A DNA stretch of 64,000 bases from an uncultured Bacteroidales bacterium (GTDB lineage Bacteria > Bacteroidota > Bacteroidia > Bacteroidales > UBA11471): contig CANQQA010000001.1 of assembly GCA_947625885.1 (NCBI GenBank), forward strand, positions 124,001 through 188,000, in the 5' to 3' direction. A program made the position numbers and the translations under genes. Each line of letters begins with the position of its first letter. Within the stretch, counting starts at the first letter, position 1. Shown here in pieces: positions 26,873-53,596 of the stretch. A model generated the notes under the pieces. It searched no databases. It was not told where the DNA came from and worked only from the letters and a program-made list of their open reading frames with translations.

Positions 26873-26909
26873 ATTTCCCTGCGAAGCACCGACTTCGCCA
26901 GAGAATTGC

Positions 26910-26917
26910 TATTTTTG
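26910..26917 (+). promoter_or_regulatory. -7 promoter box of the flippase gene, very short leader
   Basis: TATTTTTG followed by CACAAA lies 15 bases before the ATG at 26933, so the mRNA leader would be about ten bases. The same block with near-identical flank precedes the gene at 28448. It excludes the start at 26906, which would translate the promoter itself. Confidence 0.7.
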
Positions 26918-26932
26918 CACAAAGCAAATGAA

Positions 26933-28387
26933 ATGGCAGAAGAACAGTCGCTGAAAGAAAAAACCGCCAAAGGCATATTCTGGGGCGGATTGAGCAACGG
27001 ATTGCAACAGCTGCTCAATCTGCTCTTCGGCATTTTTCTGGCACGGCTTCTCTCGCCTGCCGATTACGGTATGGTGGGTATGCTCACCGTTTTTTCATTA
27101 CTTGCCGGGCTTTTGCAAGAAAGCGGATTCACGGCAGCCCTTGTCAATCTCAAAAAAGCGGAACATCGCGATTACAATGCCGTATTCTGGTTCAGTTCCG
27201 GTGTGAGCTGCCTGCTCTACGTGGTGTTTTTCTTTGCAGCCCCTCTTATCGCCCGCTTTTACCATACGCCGGAAATCATCCGATTGGCGCGCTACATTTT
27301 TTTAGGATTCGTATGTTCGAGTTTCTGCGCCACACCTTCGGCTTATATGTTTCGCAACCTTATGGTAAAACAGCGTGCCATATCCCAAATTACCGGACTC
27401 ATCGTTGCCGGCTGCACGGGGGTAACATTGGCATACTTCGGATTTTCCTATTGGGGTATCGCCACACAGCATATCATGTATATCCTGATAACGACCGGCT
27501 GTTATTGGTACTTTTCGGCATGGCGACCCAAATTCAGTTTCGATTTTTCGCCCATACGCCGAATGTTCGGATTCAGTTACAAGCTGCTTATCACCAACTT
27601 TTTCAATGTCATCAATCAAAATATACTGAGTGTCGTTCTGGGGCGCCTCTACTCCGAACGCGAGGTGGGGTATTACAACCAAGCCTACAAATGGAACAAT
27701 ATGGGGCAATCGGCTCTTTGGGGAACGATAAACGGGGTGGCGCAACCGGTGCTGGCAAGTGTTGCCAATGAACGGGAGCGCCAGCAGCGCATCTTCCGCA
27801 AAATGCTGCGCTTTGCCGCATTCATCTCTTTTCCTGCCATGCTGGGACTCGGTCTGGTGGCGGAAGAACTTATCGCCATCGCTATCACGGACAAGTGGCT
27901 GCCGAGTGCGCAATTGATGCAGATACTTTGCGTTGGGGGCGCTTTCTTTCCCATTTCATCGTTATATCAGCAGCTTATCATCAGCAAAGGTAAATCCACC
28001 CGATATATGTGGAACATCATTGCATCGGGGCTGCTTGTTTTGGCATCGTTTCTTCTCGCCTATCCTTACGGCATTCGCAGCATGGTGTTCTGCTTCGTCG
28101 GCATAAATATCGGCTGGCTGCCGATATGGCACCTAAGCATTCGGAAAGAAACGGGACTGCGTTTCCGGCACACCGTTCTCGACATTCTTCCATACGCCGT
28201 CATCGCCTTGTGCTGCACGGGAGCGGCTTATTGGCTTACGCTTTCCGTCGAAAACATCTTCCTGCGCTTCTTCGCAAAAATCGGCATCTCCGCCGCTCTG
28301 TATCTCGCCACGCTATGGCTCTGCCGCTCGGTTACGATGAGAGAGAGTTTCCAATACTTGGGTCTGATAAAACGCAACGACAGATAA
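26933..28387 (+). CDS. Oligosaccharide flippase (Wzx-like, MOP superfamily)
   Basis: This 484-residue polytopic protein has about 12-14 hydrophobic helices. It begins MAEEQSLKEKTAKGIFWGGLSNGLQQLLNLLFGIFLARLLSP and contains the membrane segment DYGMVGMLTVFSLLAGLLQESGF typical of polysaccharide transporters. It would flip a lipid-linked glycan across the inner membrane. The following two genes (cytidylyltransferase/SDR fusion and LicD) suggest the glycan carries a phospho-polyol, perhaps ribitol-phosphate. It has its own promoter, so it is separable from the type IX genes. Confidence 0.9.
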   Translation: MAEEQSLKEKTAKGIFWGGLSNGLQQLLNLLFGIFLARLLSPADYGMVGMLTVFSLLAGLLQESGFTAALVNLKKAEHRDYNAVFWFSSGVSCLLYVVFFFAAPLIARFYHTPEIIRLARYIFLGFVCSSFCATPSAYMFRNLMVKQRAISQITGLIVAGCTGVTLAYFGFSYWGIATQHIMYILITTGCYWYFSAWRPKFSFDFSPIRRMFGFSYKLLITNFFNVINQNILSVVLGRLYSEREVGYYNQAYKWNNMGQSALWGTINGVAQPVLASVANERERQQRIFRKMLRFAAFISFPAMLGLGLVAEELIAIAITDKWLPSAQLMQILCVGGAFFPISSLYQQLIISKGKSTRYMWNIIASGLLVLASFLLAYPYGIRSMVFCFVGINIGWLPIWHLSIRKETGLRFRHTVLDILPYAVIALCCTGAAYWLTLSVENIFLRFFAKIGISAALYLATLWLCRSVTMRESFQYLGLIKRNDR

Positions 28388-28404
28388 TTCCCTGCCGTCT
28401 TGCA

Positions 28405-28432
28405 TTGTTTTGAAAATTAATTGTTATTTTTG
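28405..28432 (+). promoter_or_regulatory. Promoter of the cytidylyltransferase/SDR gene
   Basis: TTG (28405-28407), a 17-base spacer and TATTTTTG (28425-28432) precede the ATG at 28448 by 15 bases. The sequence from TATTTTTGCACAAA to the start is close to that before 26933. Confidence 0.7.
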
Positions 28433-28447
28433 CACAAAACAAGCGAA

Positions 28448-29818
28448 ATGGAGAAAAACATAGCTGTCATTTTAGCCGGAGGCATCGGTTTGCGTTTAGG
28501 TGAAACATTACCCAAACAATTCTTGAAAATCGCCGGTAAAAAAGTGATAGAACATACGATAGACGTATTCCAGCGGCATCGGCAAATCGACGAAATCGCA
28601 GTGGTAGTACATGCCGACTATGTGCGCGATATGGAAGAAATCGCATTGAAAAATCGTTTTTCCAAATTGAAAAAAGTCCTGATCGGCGGCAACGAACGGT
28701 ATCAATCGAGTTTGGCAGCTATCAACGCCTACGACGAAGACGTGAACCTTATTTTCCACGACTCGGTGCGACCGCTGGTCAATGAGCGCATCATCAGCGA
28801 CTGCATCGAGGCGCTGTCGCACCATCATGCGGTAGATGTGGCAGTACCCACAACCGACACCATCATACAGGTAAACGAACGCAACGAAATTGTACATATT
28901 CCGCCCCGCTCCCTGCTGCGGAACGGGCAGACGCCGCAAGCATTCAAACGTTCGGTCATTAAAGCTGCTTACGAAAAAGCGCTGACCGACCCGCATTTCC
29001 AAACGACCGATGATTGCGGTGTCGTATTGAAATACCTGCCCGAAGAACCCGTATATGTAGTACAAGGAGAAATGTTCAATATGAAACTTACCTACAAAGA
29101 AGATATTTTCTTGTTGGATAAGTTGTTTCAACTGCGAAGCATTCCCGATTACAGCAACGTCGCTCCGGAAATAACGGAAAAACAGCTGAAAGGAAAAGTC
29201 ATCGTGGTTTTCGGCGGAAGCTACGGCATCGGCAAAGAGGTGTGCGAATTGTGTCGCCGATACGGCGTATCACCTTACTCATTCAGCCGCTCGTCGGGAG
29301 TCGATGTTTCCGATAAGGATACGGTGCAAAAAGCATTAGCCGACGTATATGCCCGAACAGGTCGCATCGACTACATCGTCGATACCGCCGGCATATTGGA
29401 CAGACAGCCCCTCAACGATATGGACTACGAAACCGTGAAACGAAGCATCGACACCAATTATTTGGGGTGCGTAATCGTAGCCAAAGAAGCCTATCGCTAC
29501 CTGAAAGAGAGTCAGGGCGCCCTGCTGTTTTACACAAGCAGCTCTTATACGCGGGGACGGTCGCTGTACAGCTTGTATTCTTCGGCAAAAGCCGCTATCG
29601 TCAATTTCGTACAGGCATTGAGCGAAGAGTGGTTCGACGCCGGCATACGCATCAACTGCATCAACCCCGAACGCACCAAAACGCCCATGCGGATAAAAAA
29701 TTTCGGCAATGAGCCGGAAAACACGCTATTAGATCCCAAAACCGTCGCTATGGCATCGGTCAATACGTTGCTGTCGAAAATGACCGGAGAAGTGATAGAT
29801 GTGAAAAGAAAAGACTAA
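28448..29818 (+). CDS. Bifunctional cytidylyltransferase / SDR reductase (CDP-ribitol synthesis type)
   Basis: This 456-residue fusion has an N-terminal IspD/TarI-like cytidylyltransferase (residues 1 to about 235) with AVILAGGIGLRLG, PKQFLKI, and the core RNGQTPQAF. The C-terminal short-chain dehydrogenase (about 245-456) has the nucleotide motif FGGSYGIGKEV and catalytic YSSAK. This architecture is known from Bcs1 of Haemophilus, which reduces ribulose-5-P and couples ribitol-5-P to CTP, giving CDP-ribitol. A role here in making CDP-ribitol for the neighbouring LicD enzyme is inference. I rejected MEP-pathway IspD because of the SDR fusion and its glycan neighbours. Confidence 0.87.
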   Translation: MEKNIAVILAGGIGLRLGETLPKQFLKIAGKKVIEHTIDVFQRHRQIDEIAVVVHADYVRDMEEIALKNRFSKLKKVLIGGNERYQSSLAAINAYDEDVNLIFHDSVRPLVNERIISDCIEALSHHHAVDVAVPTTDTIIQVNERNEIVHIPPRSLLRNGQTPQAFKRSVIKAAYEKALTDPHFQTTDDCGVVLKYLPEEPVYVVQGEMFNMKLTYKEDIFLLDKLFQLRSIPDYSNVAPEITEKQLKGKVIVVFGGSYGIGKEVCELCRRYGVSPYSFSRSSGVDVSDKDTVQKALADVYARTGRIDYIVDTAGILDRQPLNDMDYETVKRSIDTNYLGCVIVAKEAYRYLKESQGALLFYTSSSYTRGRSLYSLYSSAKAAIVNFVQALSEEWFDAGIRINCINPERTKTPMRIKNFGNEPENTLLDPKTVAMASVNTLLSKMTGEVIDVKRKD

Positions 29819-29822
29819 ACTC

Positions 29823-30635
29823 ATGGAAAATCCGTATTTAGAGACCTATAAAAAACAAACGCTGCGGCTCTGCCAATTGAAAGAGCTTGCTATTCTCGAA
29901 GAAATCGTGCGCATCTGCGAAAAGCACAATATAGAATATTGGCTCGACGGCGGAACGCTATTAGGCGCGGTACGGCACGGCGGATTCATTCCATGGGACG
30001 ACGATATAGACATCGGCATGACGTGTGCAGGGCTGGAAAAATTCAAACAGGTGGCTCCGTCGGAATTGCCGGAACACTTGTTTCTGCAAACGCCGCAAAC
30101 CGATTCGGACAAAAAGCCGATTGCCAAAGTCCGTGACTTGAATTCCTTTTTCATCGAAAAGGAAGATTTTTTCAACACCGATTACCAAAAAGGCATCTAC
30201 GTGGATATATTCCCCTTTACAGACTACCCGACCCTGCCCCGCCCCATTATAAAAAAATTGACAAGAGGAATATGGTTGAGTTACTTCATACTACATACCC
30301 AACATTTCTATACGCTGCGCTCTTTTGCCGAATTTTTTTATTTCGGTGCCAAATATCCGTTATGTCTTTCTATCTGGCGGTTGGTATGCCTATTAGGTAA
30401 AAAAGGTGTTTATATGGGAAATATTCCACATAACAGCACGTATGGAGCTACTCACCGTAAAGATTCCATTTTTCCGTTATCCGAGATTGTCTTTGAAGGG
30501 AAAAAATTCAAAGCTCCCGCCAATCCCGATTTATATCTAAAAGATTTATATAAAAATTACATGGAGATTCCGCCCAAAGAAAAGCAGGCTATTCATGCCT
30601 TCTATATTCACACCGAACTTGTCAAAAAATCGTAA
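29823..30635 (+). CDS. LicD-family phosphotransferase
   Basis: This 270-residue enzyme is of the LicD/fukutin family of nucleotidyltransferase-fold phosphotransferases that add phosphocholine or ribitol-phosphate to glycans. The defining motif WLDGGTLLGAVRHGGFIPWD with following DDIDIGM gives metal-binding Asp residues at 42 and 59-63. It starts 4 bases after the CDP-polyol gene, which is strong evidence that both act in one pathway. CDP-choline genes are absent here, so ribitol-phosphate is the better guess. Base composition becomes more A+T-rich towards the 3' end. Confidence 0.9.
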   Translation: MENPYLETYKKQTLRLCQLKELAILEEIVRICEKHNIEYWLDGGTLLGAVRHGGFIPWDDDIDIGMTCAGLEKFKQVAPSELPEHLFLQTPQTDSDKKPIAKVRDLNSFFIEKEDFFNTDYQKGIYVDIFPFTDYPTLPRPIIKKLTRGIWLSYFILHTQHFYTLRSFAEFFYFGAKYPLCLSIWRLVCLLGKKGVYMGNIPHNSTYGATHRKDSIFPLSEIVFEGKKFKAPANPDLYLKDLYKNYMEIPPKEKQAIHAFYIHTELVKKS

Positions 30636-48641: not shown

Positions 48642-49349
48642 TCAATATACGAGCGTTCCGATATTTTCGCCGTTCATCACCTTGCGGAGGTTGCCGACGG
48701 TGTCCATATCGAACACGATGATAGGCAGATGATTCTCTTTGCAGAGGGTGGTGGCGGTAAGGTCCATGACTTTCAGTCCGCGATTGTAGATTTCGTCGTA
48801 ACTGATTTTGTCGAACTTCACTGCCGAAGGGTCTTTTTCGGGGTCGGCGGTGTAGATGCCATCGACGCGCGTGCCTTTGAGCATCACTTCGGCGCCGACT
48901 TCCACGCCGCGCAATGCCGATGCGGTGTCGGTGGTGAAGAACGGATTTCCCGTGCCGCCCGATATGATGACGATTTCGCCGCGCGACAGCGACTCGATGG
49001 CGCGTGCAGGGCTGTAATGTTCGCCTATGGGGTGCATGGGTACGGCGGTATATACGCGGGCTTTCTGCCCGAGCGTTTCGAGGGCGGAGCTTAGCGCCAG
49101 ACTGTTGATGACGGTTGCCAGCATACCCATTTGGTCGCCCTTCACGCGGTCGAATCCTTTTGAGGCGCCGCTCAGTCCGCGAAAAATGTTACCGCCGCCG
49201 ATGACAATGGCTATCTCCACTCCCATGCCGGCTATCTCCTTTATCTGCGCGGCATACTCCTGCAAACGCACTTCGTCGATGCCGTACTGCTTTTTACCCA
49301 TCAGGCTCTCACCGCTGAGTTTCAATAATATTCTTTTATATTGTGCCAT
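48642..49349 (-). CDS. pyrH: UMP kinase
   Basis: This 235-residue hexameric amino-acid-kinase-fold enzyme phosphorylates UMP to UDP. Signatures are RILLKLSGESLMG at the start, IVIGGGNIFRG, VKGDQMGMLATVINSLAL, and the C-terminal DLTATTLCKENHLPIIVFDM. It precedes frr by 71 bases. A full promoter pair is upstream at 49376-49405. Confidence 0.97.
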   Translation of the reverse strand: MAQYKRILLKLSGESLMGKKQYGIDEVRLQEYAAQIKEIAGMGVEIAIVIGGGNIFRGLSGASKGFDRVKGDQMGMLATVINSLALSSALETLGQKARVYTAVPMHPIGEHYSPARAIESLSRGEIVIISGGTGNPFFTTDTASALRGVEVGAEVMLKGTRVDGIYTADPEKDPSAVKFDKISYDEIYNRGLKVMDLTATTLCKENHLPIIVFDMDTVGNLRKVMNGENIGTLVY

Positions 49350-49547: not shown

Positions 49548-49596
49548 TATCTTGATTGAAGATAAGACTCTATTTTGAAATAATTTATAAAAAGTG

Positions 49597-50151
49597 ATGG
49601 TTATGTATAAACACATTTTATTAACTATTGCAATGGTAATGGCTGTTAATTTAAACATCTATTCCCAGCAAAGATTACAGCATCTTATAAATGAATTTAA
49701 ATCATCTATAGAGTTACCAGAATATTATAAAGGGAAACAACTAGAAACTCTAACTCCAAATGAAGTACGAAATATGAATATTGAAAATGGCATTTTAACT
49801 TTTCAATACACTTTTGGGAAAATATCCCCCCTCAACTACTATTCTATCAAAATAGATTTAAGAAAAGTAGAAACTAAAAAAGGAATAGAATGTGATTACA
49901 ATGCTTGGTTTGCAGGAAGTATTGTTGTTTGTATAACAAGAAATGAGGGGACAGAAACTATATTGGTGGATTGGTTCCCTTTTTCCTGTAAATCAGAAAG
50001 TATGAGAGATCGGATATATAATGAATTAGTATCTATGCAAGCCCCTTTTAAACCACAAACAAAAACAGTTTCTCAAACAAACCGCAAAAAAACAGATTTA
50101 CAAACTCGCTCAGTTTCAAAAAAATCAAAATCGGGTAAATATGCACAATAA
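49597..50151 (+). CDS. Hypothetical secreted protein of the A+T-rich island
   Basis: This protein of about 184 residues has an N-terminal signal peptide (MYKHILLTIAMVMAVNLNIYSQQ). Next is a soluble region with alternating hydrophobic residues suggesting beta-strands (GILTFQYTFGKISPLNYYSIKIDL, AGSIVVCITRNEGTETILVDWFPFSC), then a basic, Lys/Thr/Ser-rich C terminus (about 140-184). I recognise no family. The start could be ATG 49597 or 49603 (or GTG 49594). The next gene overlaps its end by 11 bases, so they are probably co-translated. Codon use is far more A+T-rich than the flanks. Confidence 0.7.
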   Translation: MVMYKHILLTIAMVMAVNLNIYSQQRLQHLINEFKSSIELPEYYKGKQLETLTPNEVRNMNIENGILTFQYTFGKISPLNYYSIKIDLRKVETKKGIECDYNAWFAGSIVVCITRNEGTETILVDWFPFSCKSESMRDRIYNELVSMQAPFKPQTKTVSQTNRKKTDLQTRSVSKKSKSGKYAQ

Positions 50152-51436
50152 AATTCTCTATATACTTTTGTTGTTTATGATCTGTTTGGTATCATGTAAC
50201 AACGGAAATATCGCATCTAAACACTCCATGCCTATTGTTGAATTTTTATCTGATACATTGTTAATTGATAATGTATACAATAAAAATATCTCCATATCTG
50301 TAGAAAATGAAAATGTAATGTCTTTCAATGGAAGAGAGAAATTGATATCTATATCACTGCTTGATGTTGTAAGAAAATGTAAAGATAAGCGTGAAACCGC
50401 TTTACGGGCTTTAAAGAATAATAATGTATTGCAAATTAAAGTCGTTATAAAAAACGAAATTGATACAATCTACAATTACAATATATCACCTATTTATGAT
50501 GAAGACAACGCATTCTCAATTTCAGGACAATGTGCTCCATTAACATCCAAATTTTCTAACTCGACACAAACTGTTGATATTAAAAAGTGGTTATTTCGAA
50601 AAAAAGAACATTTGGATAACGAAAACATTCATGTATTATGCAGGTTAGTTAATCAATTATCCAGAACTAACACAATAGAATATGTAACAAATTCTATTAT
50701 CCCTGTAATTCATAGTTTCTCCGGGCTGAAATACAAAGTAAACTCTTCAATTACAGCAGATTATTATGTGTTGTACGCTTGCTCTTCCACAAAAGAAATT
50801 GATGAATTTATAGAAGATATTATATCCAACGATTTTGACCTATGTGTAAGAACACTTAATGAAGAAATGGACTGTTATCGACAATCTGAAAGTAATGGAT
50901 ATAAATGTATCTGTTTGATTGCCATAAACAGTGATTGGAGTTACAAAATACAACCATTAGGACTTATAGTCATAGATAATTTAGCTCCTGTTACTGATAT
51001 ATTTTCATATGTTAATAGTAATGCCGTTTCAAGCCTTTCTTTCCCGAATAATGTATCGGTTCTATTCCCCTCTAACATACCACAAATTGATGGATTTTGC
51101 AATGTTAAAGTTGTTTATTGGGCTGGAAGTGGTATAAGTTGTAATTGCACTTTTTCTATTGACTTTTCTGGTGATATAAAATCGGTTGTTATTCACCGTA
51201 GAAATAAATTAGCTAAATATCTTACTACAGAAAAAAAGACAATAGAATTAAATAAGGTAAGTGTACCATATATATTTACATATGAATTACATCTAGATGA
51301 TGGCGATAACTTTATACCTATTACAATTTATGATTATCACGGTAACAAGACTGATTATAAAATTAATATTAGGGCGGAATTTGTATATAGAGATTCTCCT
51401 GATATAAATATTGATAATAATATAGATATATATTAA
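50141..51436 (+). CDS. Hypothetical lipoprotein of the A+T-rich island
   Basis: This 431-residue protein has a lipoprotein signal (MHNKILYILLLFMICLVSC, Cys19, lipobox LVSC) followed by NNGN. The body is largely beta-type with several Cys (positions around CKDK, GQCAPL, CRLVNQL, YACSS, CYRQSESNGYKCICL, CNCTF). A C-terminal Ig-like region is suggested by LNKVSVPYIFTYELHLDDGDNFIPITIYDYHGNKTDYKINIRAEF. I do not recognise the family. It would sit in the periplasm or on the outer membrane. It overlaps the secreted-protein gene upstream and precedes the DUF2971 gene by 29 bases. Confidence 0.72.
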   Translation: MHNKILYILLLFMICLVSCNNGNIASKHSMPIVEFLSDTLLIDNVYNKNISISVENENVMSFNGREKLISISLLDVVRKCKDKRETALRALKNNNVLQIKVVIKNEIDTIYNYNISPIYDEDNAFSISGQCAPLTSKFSNSTQTVDIKKWLFRKKEHLDNENIHVLCRLVNQLSRTNTIEYVTNSIIPVIHSFSGLKYKVNSSITADYYVLYACSSTKEIDEFIEDIISNDFDLCVRTLNEEMDCYRQSESNGYKCICLIAINSDWSYKIQPLGLIVIDNLAPVTDIFSYVNSNAVSSLSFPNNVSVLFPSNIPQIDGFCNVKVVYWAGSGISCNCTFSIDFSGDIKSVVIHRRNKLAKYLTTEKKTIELNKVSVPYIFTYELHLDDGDNFIPITIYDYHGNKTDYKINIRAEFVYRDSPDINIDNNIDIY

Positions 51437-51465
51437 CTACTTTTTAGCCATTATGGAATATCAAA

Positions 51466-52223
51466 ATGAATATAAATAGCTCAAAAATTCACTATCCCAA
51501 AATATTATATAAATATCGAGATTGGGACAATGAGTTACATAAGAAAGTTCTTTTAGAAAACAAATTATATTTGGCTTCCCCTAAAGATTTTGAGGATATA
51601 TTTGATTGTAACCTCCCTGAGAAATTTCCACGAAAGGATGAATTATATAATTTCTTTATCGATAAAGCAAAAAAAATCCGTCTTGGTCAAGACAAGTGCG
51701 TCGAAAATTTGCAAGAAATTGGTGCAAGAAATCGCCTTTAGCAAATCCTGAATTGCGTTCAACTTTAATTAATAATATTCATCAAGAATTCAATTCTCGT
51801 TTTGGGGTATTAAGCATGACTGCAGACTGCAATAATGATGTGATGTGGTGTAAATATGCGAACAATCATCAAGGTATTTGTATTGGATTTGATACTAGTT
51901 TGCTTTTCAAATATGTTGGAGGTGGTGGCAAAGTTCAATATGTTAAGGAACTCCCTCCTATAGACTTTGCAAAAGATGATTTCAAATCAAAACATACCAA
52001 GAATATATTTTATAAGGAGGAGAAATGGAGTTTTGAAAAAGAGTATAGATTGCATAAAATGTGGAATCATAATGTAACAAATGATGAGCGAAATATAGAA
52101 TTACCCAATAATTGTATAGTAAAAATTATTTTAGGAAAAAATATGACACTTCATATGAAAGACGAAATTAAAAAGTTAGCCAAGACTAAATATCCAAATG
52201 CGGAGATTATAGAAAATAACTAA
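51466..52223 (+). pseudogene. DUF2971 family gene, interrupted by a -1-type frameshift
   Basis: Two overlapping frames encode the two halves of one DUF2971 protein. The first (51466-51741) has YPKILYKYRDWDNELHKKVLLENKLYLASPKDFEDIFDCN. The second (open in its frame past 51677, to the stop at 52221-52223) has RFGVLSMTADCNNDVMWCKYANNHQGICIGFD and EEKWSFEKEYRLHK, in the order usual for the family. Joined, they would give about 250 residues, near normal. The shift must lie between the A8 run at 51669-51676 and the first-frame stop at 51739. It may be a pseudogene, a phase-variable or programmed slip, or an assembly error. DUF2971 has no agreed function. Confidence 0.75.
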
Positions 52224-52253
52224 GCTTTCAAACAAATGAGAACAGAAAACAAT

Positions 52254-52283
52254 GCCCTACCATTCATTATTGAATGGTAGGGC
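52254..52283 (+). terminator. Hairpin terminator closing the A+T-rich island
   Basis: A perfect 13-bp stem (GCCCTACCATTCA 52254-52266 / TGAATGGTAGGGC 52271-52283) with TTAT loop stands 30 bases after the DUF2971 stop. The T-rich tract after it is short and interrupted (GTTAGTATTTT). Confidence 0.75.
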
Positions 52284-52380
52284 GTTAGTATTTTCCAAAG
52301 TTATATATTTATCCCCACAAATAAACAAATCAAGATACTGTTCCAAAGTTACAGAAAGGTTTTGCAAAACGGCAAGGGTA

Positions 52381-52416
52381 AAAACAATCGGGCTGCGCGT
52401 GTGGCGCAGCCCGATT
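52381..52416 (-). terminator. Terminator of the methylmalonyl-CoA decarboxylase operon
   Basis: A perfect 13-bp stem (AATCGGGCTGCGC 52386-52398 / GCGCAGCCCGATT 52404-52416), loop 5 bases, is followed on the minus strand by G and T4-5. It lies 22 bases after the oadB stop. Confidence 0.9.
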
Positions 52417-52438: not shown

Positions 52439-53596
52439 CTATCCGAGGAATCCGAGCAGGATACCGGCGGCGACTGCCGAGCCGATGACGCCTGCCACGT
52501 TGGGACCCATAGCGTGCATCAGCAGGTAGTTGGAGGGGTCGTATTCGAGACCGAGTACCTGCGAAATGCGTGCGGAGTCGGGCACTGCCGATACGCCGGC
52601 ATTACCGATAAGCGGGTTGATTTTGTTGTCTTTCCGCAAAAAGAGGTTGAAGAATTTGACAAACAACACGCCGGCTGCGGTGGCTATGACGAACGACACG
52701 GCTCCCAAAACGAATATCTTGATAGAGTTTGCAGTAAGGAATTGCGAGGCTTGGGTGGAGGCTCCGACCGTTACGCCGAGCAGAATGGTGATGACGTCGA
52801 TCAGCGGACCGCGCGCGGTTTCTGCCAAACGGCGGGTAACACCACTCTCTTTGAGCAGGTTGCCGAAGAAAAGCATTCCCAACAGCGGCAGACCCGACGG
52901 CACGAGGAAGCAGGTGAGCAAGAGTCCGACAATGGGGAAAATGATTTTTTCGGTCTGCGACACGGCACGGGGCGGACGCATACGGATAAGCCGCTCTTTC
53001 TTGTTGGTGAGCAGCCGCATGATAGGCGGCTGTATGACGGGCACGAGCGCCATGTAGGAGTATGCCGATATGGCGATGGCTCCCATGAGGTTGGGTGCGA
53101 GTTTCGAGGAGAGGAAGATGGCGGTGGGACCGTCGGCGCCGCCGATAATGGCAACGGCTCCTGCCTGACTGGGGTCGAAGCCCATAGCCAGCGCGATGGC
53201 GTATGCGCCGAAGATTCCGAACTGCGCGGCGGCTCCGACAAGCATCAACTTCGGATTGGAAATCAATGCCGAGAAGTCGGTCATCGCCCCGATGCCCAAG
53301 AATATCAGCGGCGGATACCAACCTTGCACCACGCCTTGATAAAGGATATTCAGCACCGAATTTTCTTCGTATATGCCCAACTGCAATCCGGCATCTTTGA
53401 AGGGTATGTTACCGATAAGGATACCGAATCCGATAGGGATAAGCAACATCGGCTCGAACTCTTTGGCTACTGCCAAATAGATGAAGACACAGCCGAAAAA
53501 TATCATTACCAGATTTCCAACGGCTACGTTGGCGAAACCTGTATAGGTAAGAAATTCATTTATGTTCTCACCTAAAAAACTGAAAAACTCTCCCAT
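52439..53596 (-). CDS. oadB: Sodium ion-translocating decarboxylase beta subunit
   Basis: This 385-residue membrane protein is of the OadB/MmdB/GcdB family, which decarboxylates carboxybiotin and pumps Na+ outward. It shows about ten hydrophobic segments and the family core MTDFSALISNPKLMLVGAAAQFG, with GGADGPTAIFLSSKLAP (the Asp here is the conserved Na+-site region). The C-terminal repeat has PISAY-like and LLMHAMGPNVAGVIGSAVAAGIL. In this operon with mmdA and mce it serves methylmalonyl-CoA decarboxylase. It is the last gene, 6 bases after the biotin carrier gene. Confidence 0.94.
   Translation of the reverse strand: MGEFFSFLGENINEFLTYTGFANVAVGNLVMIFFGCVFIYLAVAKEFEPMLLIPIGFGILIGNIPFKDAGLQLGIYEENSVLNILYQGVVQGWYPPLIFLGIGAMTDFSALISNPKLMLVGAAAQFGIFGAYAIALAMGFDPSQAGAVAIIGGADGPTAIFLSSKLAPNLMGAIAISAYSYMALVPVIQPPIMRLLTNKKERLIRMRPPRAVSQTEKIIFPIVGLLLTCFLVPSGLPLLGMLFFGNLLKESGVTRRLAETARGPLIDVITILLGVTVGASTQASQFLTANSIKIFVLGAVSFVIATAAGVLFVKFFNLFLRKDNKINPLIGNAGVSAVPDSARISQVLGLEYDPSNYLLMHAMGPNVAGVIGSAVAAGILLGFLG

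Follow-up and report, generated by a model that had tools for sequence, protein, structure and literature searches.

The A+T-rich segment that separates pyrH from an oadB-like gene in this Bacteroidales genome is best explained as an exchangeable defence-type cassette at a variable site, in which a DUF2971 protein would be the effector and the products of two preceding genes, A and B, its envelope partners; a probability of about 0.42 is assigned to this reading. The window, i.e. the whole 64-kb stretch of DNA that was analysed, displays 29.4% G+C between 49,551 and 52,345, against 53.3% and 54.0% in the flanking 10 kb on each side, and in a windowed analysis of the entire 64 kb, G+C falls below 42% in 1-kb windows of the cassette and nowhere else. 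An earlier reading made from the letters alone (the sequence-only reading) had described an abrupt A+T-rich island between G+C-rich flanks; this is borne out, with G+C dropping from 53% to 29% over about 49,549–52,350, and the unusual codon composition is reflected in GC3 values of 0.21–0.22 in genes A and B. The variable segment was delimited to 49,549–52,350 (29% G+C), since homology with the sister genome G005 ends at 49,548 and restarts at 52,351. It is flanked on the left by pyrH (48,642–49,349, minus strand) and on the right by the gene of an oadB-like decarboxylase beta subunit (52,439–53,596, minus strand), both kept in all seven genomes of the genus. The clean hairpin previously noticed at the end of the island was located at 52,251–52,286 (plus strand) and comprises 16-base arms that are 94% complementary (−28.7 kcal/mol, z = −8.7 relative to shuffled sequences), constituting the probable terminator of the cassette. 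A second inverted repeat, read from the sequence just to the right of the junction (52,388–52,414) and located in the portion that is common to G005, is a probable terminator of the oadB operon.

The exchange of this segment was analysed in a genus sample of seven genomes, consisting of the window genome and six others. The same cassette occupies the same site in G004 (CANQAM01, Bacteroidales MAG Lapin-001__bin46), and two of the seven genomes therefore carry it, which is not the presence in most relatives that would have argued against recent acquisition. In G005, the pyrH and oadB flanks are 98% identical, to 49,548 and from 52,351, and the identical junctions enclose a 5.0-kb cargo (37% G+C) that is unrelated to the window cassette, with which it shares zero 14-mers. 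This cargo encodes HxsD, HxsB, HxsC and HxsA2 together with a DUF1016-type nuclease (PDC-S02). In the remaining four genomes pyrH and oadB lie apart, without genes A and B, and the junction is seen in three genomes only (window genome, G004 and G005). The site thus behaves as an exchange hot spot, where shared flanks enclose one cargo in the window genome and G004 and an unrelated one in G005. Comparison of the window with G004 revealed 6 substitutions in 2,795 cassette bases and 26 in 1,706 adjacent flank bases (Fisher P = 8e-7), such that substitutions are approximately sevenfold rarer in the cassette than in its flanks, and divergence climbs to 3–5% further to the left. This valley of substitutions shows that the cassette was exchanged recently, and the alignments show that the cargo is swapped between close species; the simplest reading of the sequence data is that such inter-species exchange would proceed by recombination through the flanks. 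The transferred unit proposed earlier from composition and the hairpin is therefore supported beyond composition, by the unrelated cargo at identical junctions in G005 and by the substitution valley with G004.

These properties resemble those of defence hot spots and islands, where the same core genes enclose cargos that differ among sister species; here each cargo includes a PADLOC candidate. In contrast with such islands, no integrase or tRNA gene is located at the pyrH/oadB site, and only three genomes show the junction. No integrase, transposase or other mobility gene was identified in the gene content of the cassette, in agreement with the sequence-only reading; no tRNA gene is present in the 64-kb window, and no terminal repeats, or flanking direct repeats of note, were found at the cassette. 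A classical mobile element, which would display a mobility gene, a tRNA site or such repeats, was consequently rejected.

Gene A (49,603–50,151, plus strand) encodes a small exported protein of 182 residues with a lysine-rich tail. An alternative GTG start exists at 49,594, although the ATG at 49,603 is the likely start because of the signal peptide and the length of the Prevotella relative. Gene B (50,141–51,436, plus strand) encodes a lipoprotein of 431 residues, with an N-terminal signal and a lipobox ending at Cys19, a residue that is invariant across relatives. The protein probably comprises several β-rich domains, or at least a β-rich C-terminal part; its AlphaFold2 model was unusable (pLDDT 42, pTM 0.27). 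A secreted protein followed by a lipoprotein gene with an 11-base overlap had been predicted, and A indeed ends at 50,151 while B starts at 50,141. The statement that neither belongs to a recognised family also holds, as no family match was obtained for A or B in Pfam, NCBIfam, PADLOC, PHROGs or PDB sequences. Pfam matches to BBH37, Rpp14 and GRDP_C fell below the cut-off and were ignored, weak matches of the B profile in G034, G588 and G531 were attributed to chance or PKD-repeat similarity, and no relatives of gene B were found in viral contigs.

Relatives of the pair are rare, having been found in two genera (that of the window and that of G182) among the approximately 200 sampled of the order, plus a Prevotella MAG (L028). 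Identities to the Prevotella pair are 60% for A and 64% for B, and those to the pair of the third genus (L037, from G182) are 22% and 32%, respectively. The overlap of A and B (50,141–50,151 in the window, plus strand) is 11 bases in all three genera, and dN/dS values relative to L028 are 0.22 for A and 0.18 for B. At the level of sequence, this comparison establishes A/B as an old, selected unit. Downstream of the pair, L028 displays a DUF2971 gene after a 3-base gap, which belongs to another subfamily and is 20% identical to the window DUF2971, while L037 has an IS256-type transposase gene, and not DUF2971, in that place. A/B has thus been found twice with a DUF2971 gene behind it, and since the L028 protein is only 20% identical, it appears that different DUF2971 family members took the third position after A/B on two occasions. 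Such a neighbour is unlikely to arise by chance, as DUF2971 genes number only 48 in the 198 genomes sampled of the order (approximately 1 gene in 10^4). Upstream of A/B in L028, at 0.7 kb, is a gene for tRNA-Leu, which is a usual kind of integration site (L028:6573–7400).

The third gene of the cassette matches DUF2971 (PF11185), as previously stated, above the Pfam cut-off of 22 bits: the intact G004 copy scores 32 bits and the 3′ half in the window 30.9 (E 7e-7). The intact copy also matches the PADLOC family PDC-S31 (PDLC04994) nearly full length, over residues 4–250 (E 8.7e-91). PDCs are putative phage defence candidates, mostly unvalidated (PMC12988326). No publication on PDC-S31 or on the activity of any DUF2971/PDC-S31 protein was found in the literature searched, where DUF2971 is treated in one paper only, a genome re-annotation. 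PADLOC lists PDC-S31 as a single gene, which differs from the arrangement described here, where it is third behind two genes for exported proteins and is frameshifted. The family is carried by 39 of the 198 genomes, and relatives are found on IMG/VR viral contigs, a plasmid and phage SSU5. The closest are 59% identical (Phocaeicola massiliensis plasmid OY726032 and IMG/VR contig L074) and 55% identical (G009), and a search of viral contigs for close relatives returned one, nearly the Phocaeicola plasmid sequence.

Plasmid OY726032 shares with the cassette a low G+C content (30%) and the placement of DUF2971 behind an exported protein, in the order aspartyl protease with TPRs, DUF2971 and Fic, with 3 bases between protease and DUF2971 genes. 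In contrast, its exported partner is unrelated to A/B, and L074 retains both DUF2971 and Fic, but of the protease gene no more than the 3′ end (the last ~220 bases). The DUF2971-Fic block is 99.6% identical between viral contig and plasmid (L074:3763–5836 and L029:9751–11824), the upstream sequences being different. Two of the closest DUF2971 genes follow different proteases, the secreted aspartyl protease with TPRs (L029:8126–9970) and a trypsin-like protein (L059:1420–2400) that is apparently truncated by an adjacent transposase. Within the order, 17 of 46 DUF2971 genes are preceded on the same strand, at no more than 60 bases, by another gene. In raw counts, six of these 17 neighbours match a type I specificity subunit, a type IIG enzyme, HipA, a Ser/Thr kinase, PDC-S39 and NOV_C, and another six are exported proteins. 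Tight exported upstream partners are not enriched (7 of 46, L171 being doubtful, versus 17 of 142 background pairs), and a general pairing of DUF2971 with exported proteins was rejected; an early signal (nominal P 0.04 for 14 loci, the background being guessed at 10%) did not persist. In G004, a type IIG restriction-methylase gene is followed 2 bases later by the second DUF2971 gene of this genome (L165:3–2819 and following, G004:C27), and G002 has a DUF2971 gene elsewhere (L172).

The AlphaFold2 model of DUF2971, built from 18 sequences, presents a pLDDT of 91 and a pTM of 0.83. In a Foldseek search against the PDB, the leading matches were three chains of DarT and then yeast Tpt1, at E values of 0.02 and up (none below 0.001), and six of the top seven were DarT, Tpt1 or other entries of the ADP-ribosyltransferase superfamily. 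VIA-align 2 revealed 15 chains at Z ≥ 5 (5.0–7.6), all of them DarT, Tpt1/KptA, TreTu/TreX or SopF, which are members of the same superfamily. The best Z is 7.6, thus all are below 8, and each score alone is middling by the scale of the tool; the case for a fold resembling the split-sheet fold of ADP-ribosyltransferases lies in the uniformity of the 15 chains, and not in any single Z. Similarity extends over 110 residues for Tpt1 (Z 7.6) and 129–148 residues for DarT (Z 6.1–7.2). Invariant or near-invariant residues comprise F42, D44, W128, Y131, H135, G137, Y159, K184, E191, E193 and R195, with D44, W128, Y131, K184, E191, E193 and R195 invariant and H135 near-invariant. They include W..Y...H.G and E.E.R motifs, a further likeness to DarT and KptA, and the E.E motif, with which a late strand opens, may recall the E.E/Q.E motif of many transferases. 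In contrast, the first-strand residues are Y-K-Y in DUF2971 instead of the usual R or H, and a sequence relation was not detected: hhalign comparison with DarT and KptA profiles gave a probability of 0.2%, although it is uninformative because the DarT-KptA positive control also failed (2.6%). Furthermore, unlike DarTG, the cassette contains no DarG macrodomain partner, only A, B and DUF2971, and A/B match no macrodomain. The third gene is therefore not simply of unknown function, as it had been described: its family is an anti-phage candidate, and the fold predicted for it is ADP-ribosyltransferase-like.

In the proposed mechanism, the cytoplasmic DUF2971 protein would be an ADP-ribosyltransferase-like effector that modifies or blocks nucleic acid or protein of the invader or of the cell itself. 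The exported A protein and lipoprotein B, produced from coupled reading frames, would be placed in the envelope, where they would either sense or block attack. We infer from these elements that the module may protect against phages, that DUF2971 may transfer ADP-ribose and that A/B may act at the envelope as sensor or gate. This defence-type reading is supported by the swap, the recent exchange, the A/B unit, the re-pairing with DUF2971, PDC-S31 membership, the defence-like neighbours and the fold, and is weakened by the mostly unvalidated standing of PDCs, Z values below 8 with no Foldseek E under 0.001, the absence of an exported-partner excess, the IS256-type transposase after A/B in L037 and the frameshift described below. 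A more specific form, envelope-coupled immunity, in which lipoprotein and secreted partner detect attack on the surface and switch on a cytoplasmic DUF2971/PDC-S31 ADP-ribosyltransferase-type effector that elsewhere is wired to restriction systems and kinases, is unlikely as formulated.

The main rival to a joint system, tentatively regarded as a real possibility, is that A/B form an independent surface or periplasmic module functioning in adhesion, ligand binding or envelope upkeep, and that DUF2971 is an unrelated defence passenger sharing only the site. Such independence is consistent with the presence of A/B without DUF2971 in L037, with the plasmid-borne, 59% identical DUF2971 that follows another exported protein (the aspartyl protease with TPRs), with the lack of an overall excess of exported partners and with the loss of the DUF2971 frame in the window, where A and B are intact. 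However, a DUF2971 gene of a different subfamily follows A/B in L028 at a distance of 3 bases, and the IS beside the L037 pair may have displaced a third gene.

The DUF2971 gene (51,466–52,223, plus strand) had been read as the third of three genes; it is, however, not one open frame, consisting in the window of two overlapping frames, a 5′ part that extends to the frameshift and a premature stop (51,466–51,741) and a 3′ part in another frame that holds the Pfam domain (51,696–52,223). The intact G004 homologue (L027:9332–10090) is a single frame of 252 residues, and the frameshift, a one-base deletion in a run of 8 A at 51,669–51,676 (plus strand) that comprises 9 A in G004, is the sole difference between the two genes. 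The effector may thus be knocked out here, or made only via slippage on the A-run, so that the cassette is possibly inactive or phase-variable in the window genome. From the assembly alone, sequencing error, phase variation or true loss may each be the origin. An assembly error, which would leave the cassette intact and is compatible with any functional reading, is considered less likely than not: the deletion sits in an A homopolymer of a draft sequence and the rest of the gene is the same as in G004, but short-read sequencing seldom miscounts runs of 8–9 A, an objection that holds only if this genome is short-read. The frameshift, the unusual composition and the restriction to two of seven genomes would also fit a neutral, decaying fragment, acquired horizontally and without a current role in the window strain. 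This is improbable, as the frames of A and B are open and near-identical in G004, dN/dS is ~0.2 over longer times, and DUF2971 shows no change from G004 beyond the frameshift, so any decay must be very recent. Least probable is a toxin-immunity or interbacterial antagonism pair with A as effector and B as immunity protein, suggested by the small size, export and lysine-rich tail of A and by its coupling to a lipoprotein, since B is larger than A and conserved to a similar degree, family searches revealed no toxin-like domain, and a secretion-system adaptor is absent.

If the cassette is regarded as an exchangeable defence-type unit, its combination of exchangeable cargo and candidate defence genes is of a known kind. 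The A/B family appears to be new, and so do its association with DUF2971 and the predicted transferase-like fold of DUF2971, on which no paper was found in the literature searched. DUF2971 is a common accessory family that is scarcely treated in that literature, and the predicted fold, together with the recurrent place behind restriction, kinase and exported-protein genes, provides a specific biochemical hypothesis that would cover an entire family of defence candidates. As a small natural system, the pyrH/oadB site allows cargos to be compared among close species. The G005 cargo (L020:5924–10472, G005:C2) holds a complete-looking His-Xaa-Ser RiPP set, in which HxsA2 displays a run of HSS repeats. 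A second variable stretch of the window (26,906–30,635) carries genes for a flippase and for surface-polysaccharide functions (an IspD-like/SDR fusion and a LicD-like protein) that in G004 and G005 are either absent or divergent.
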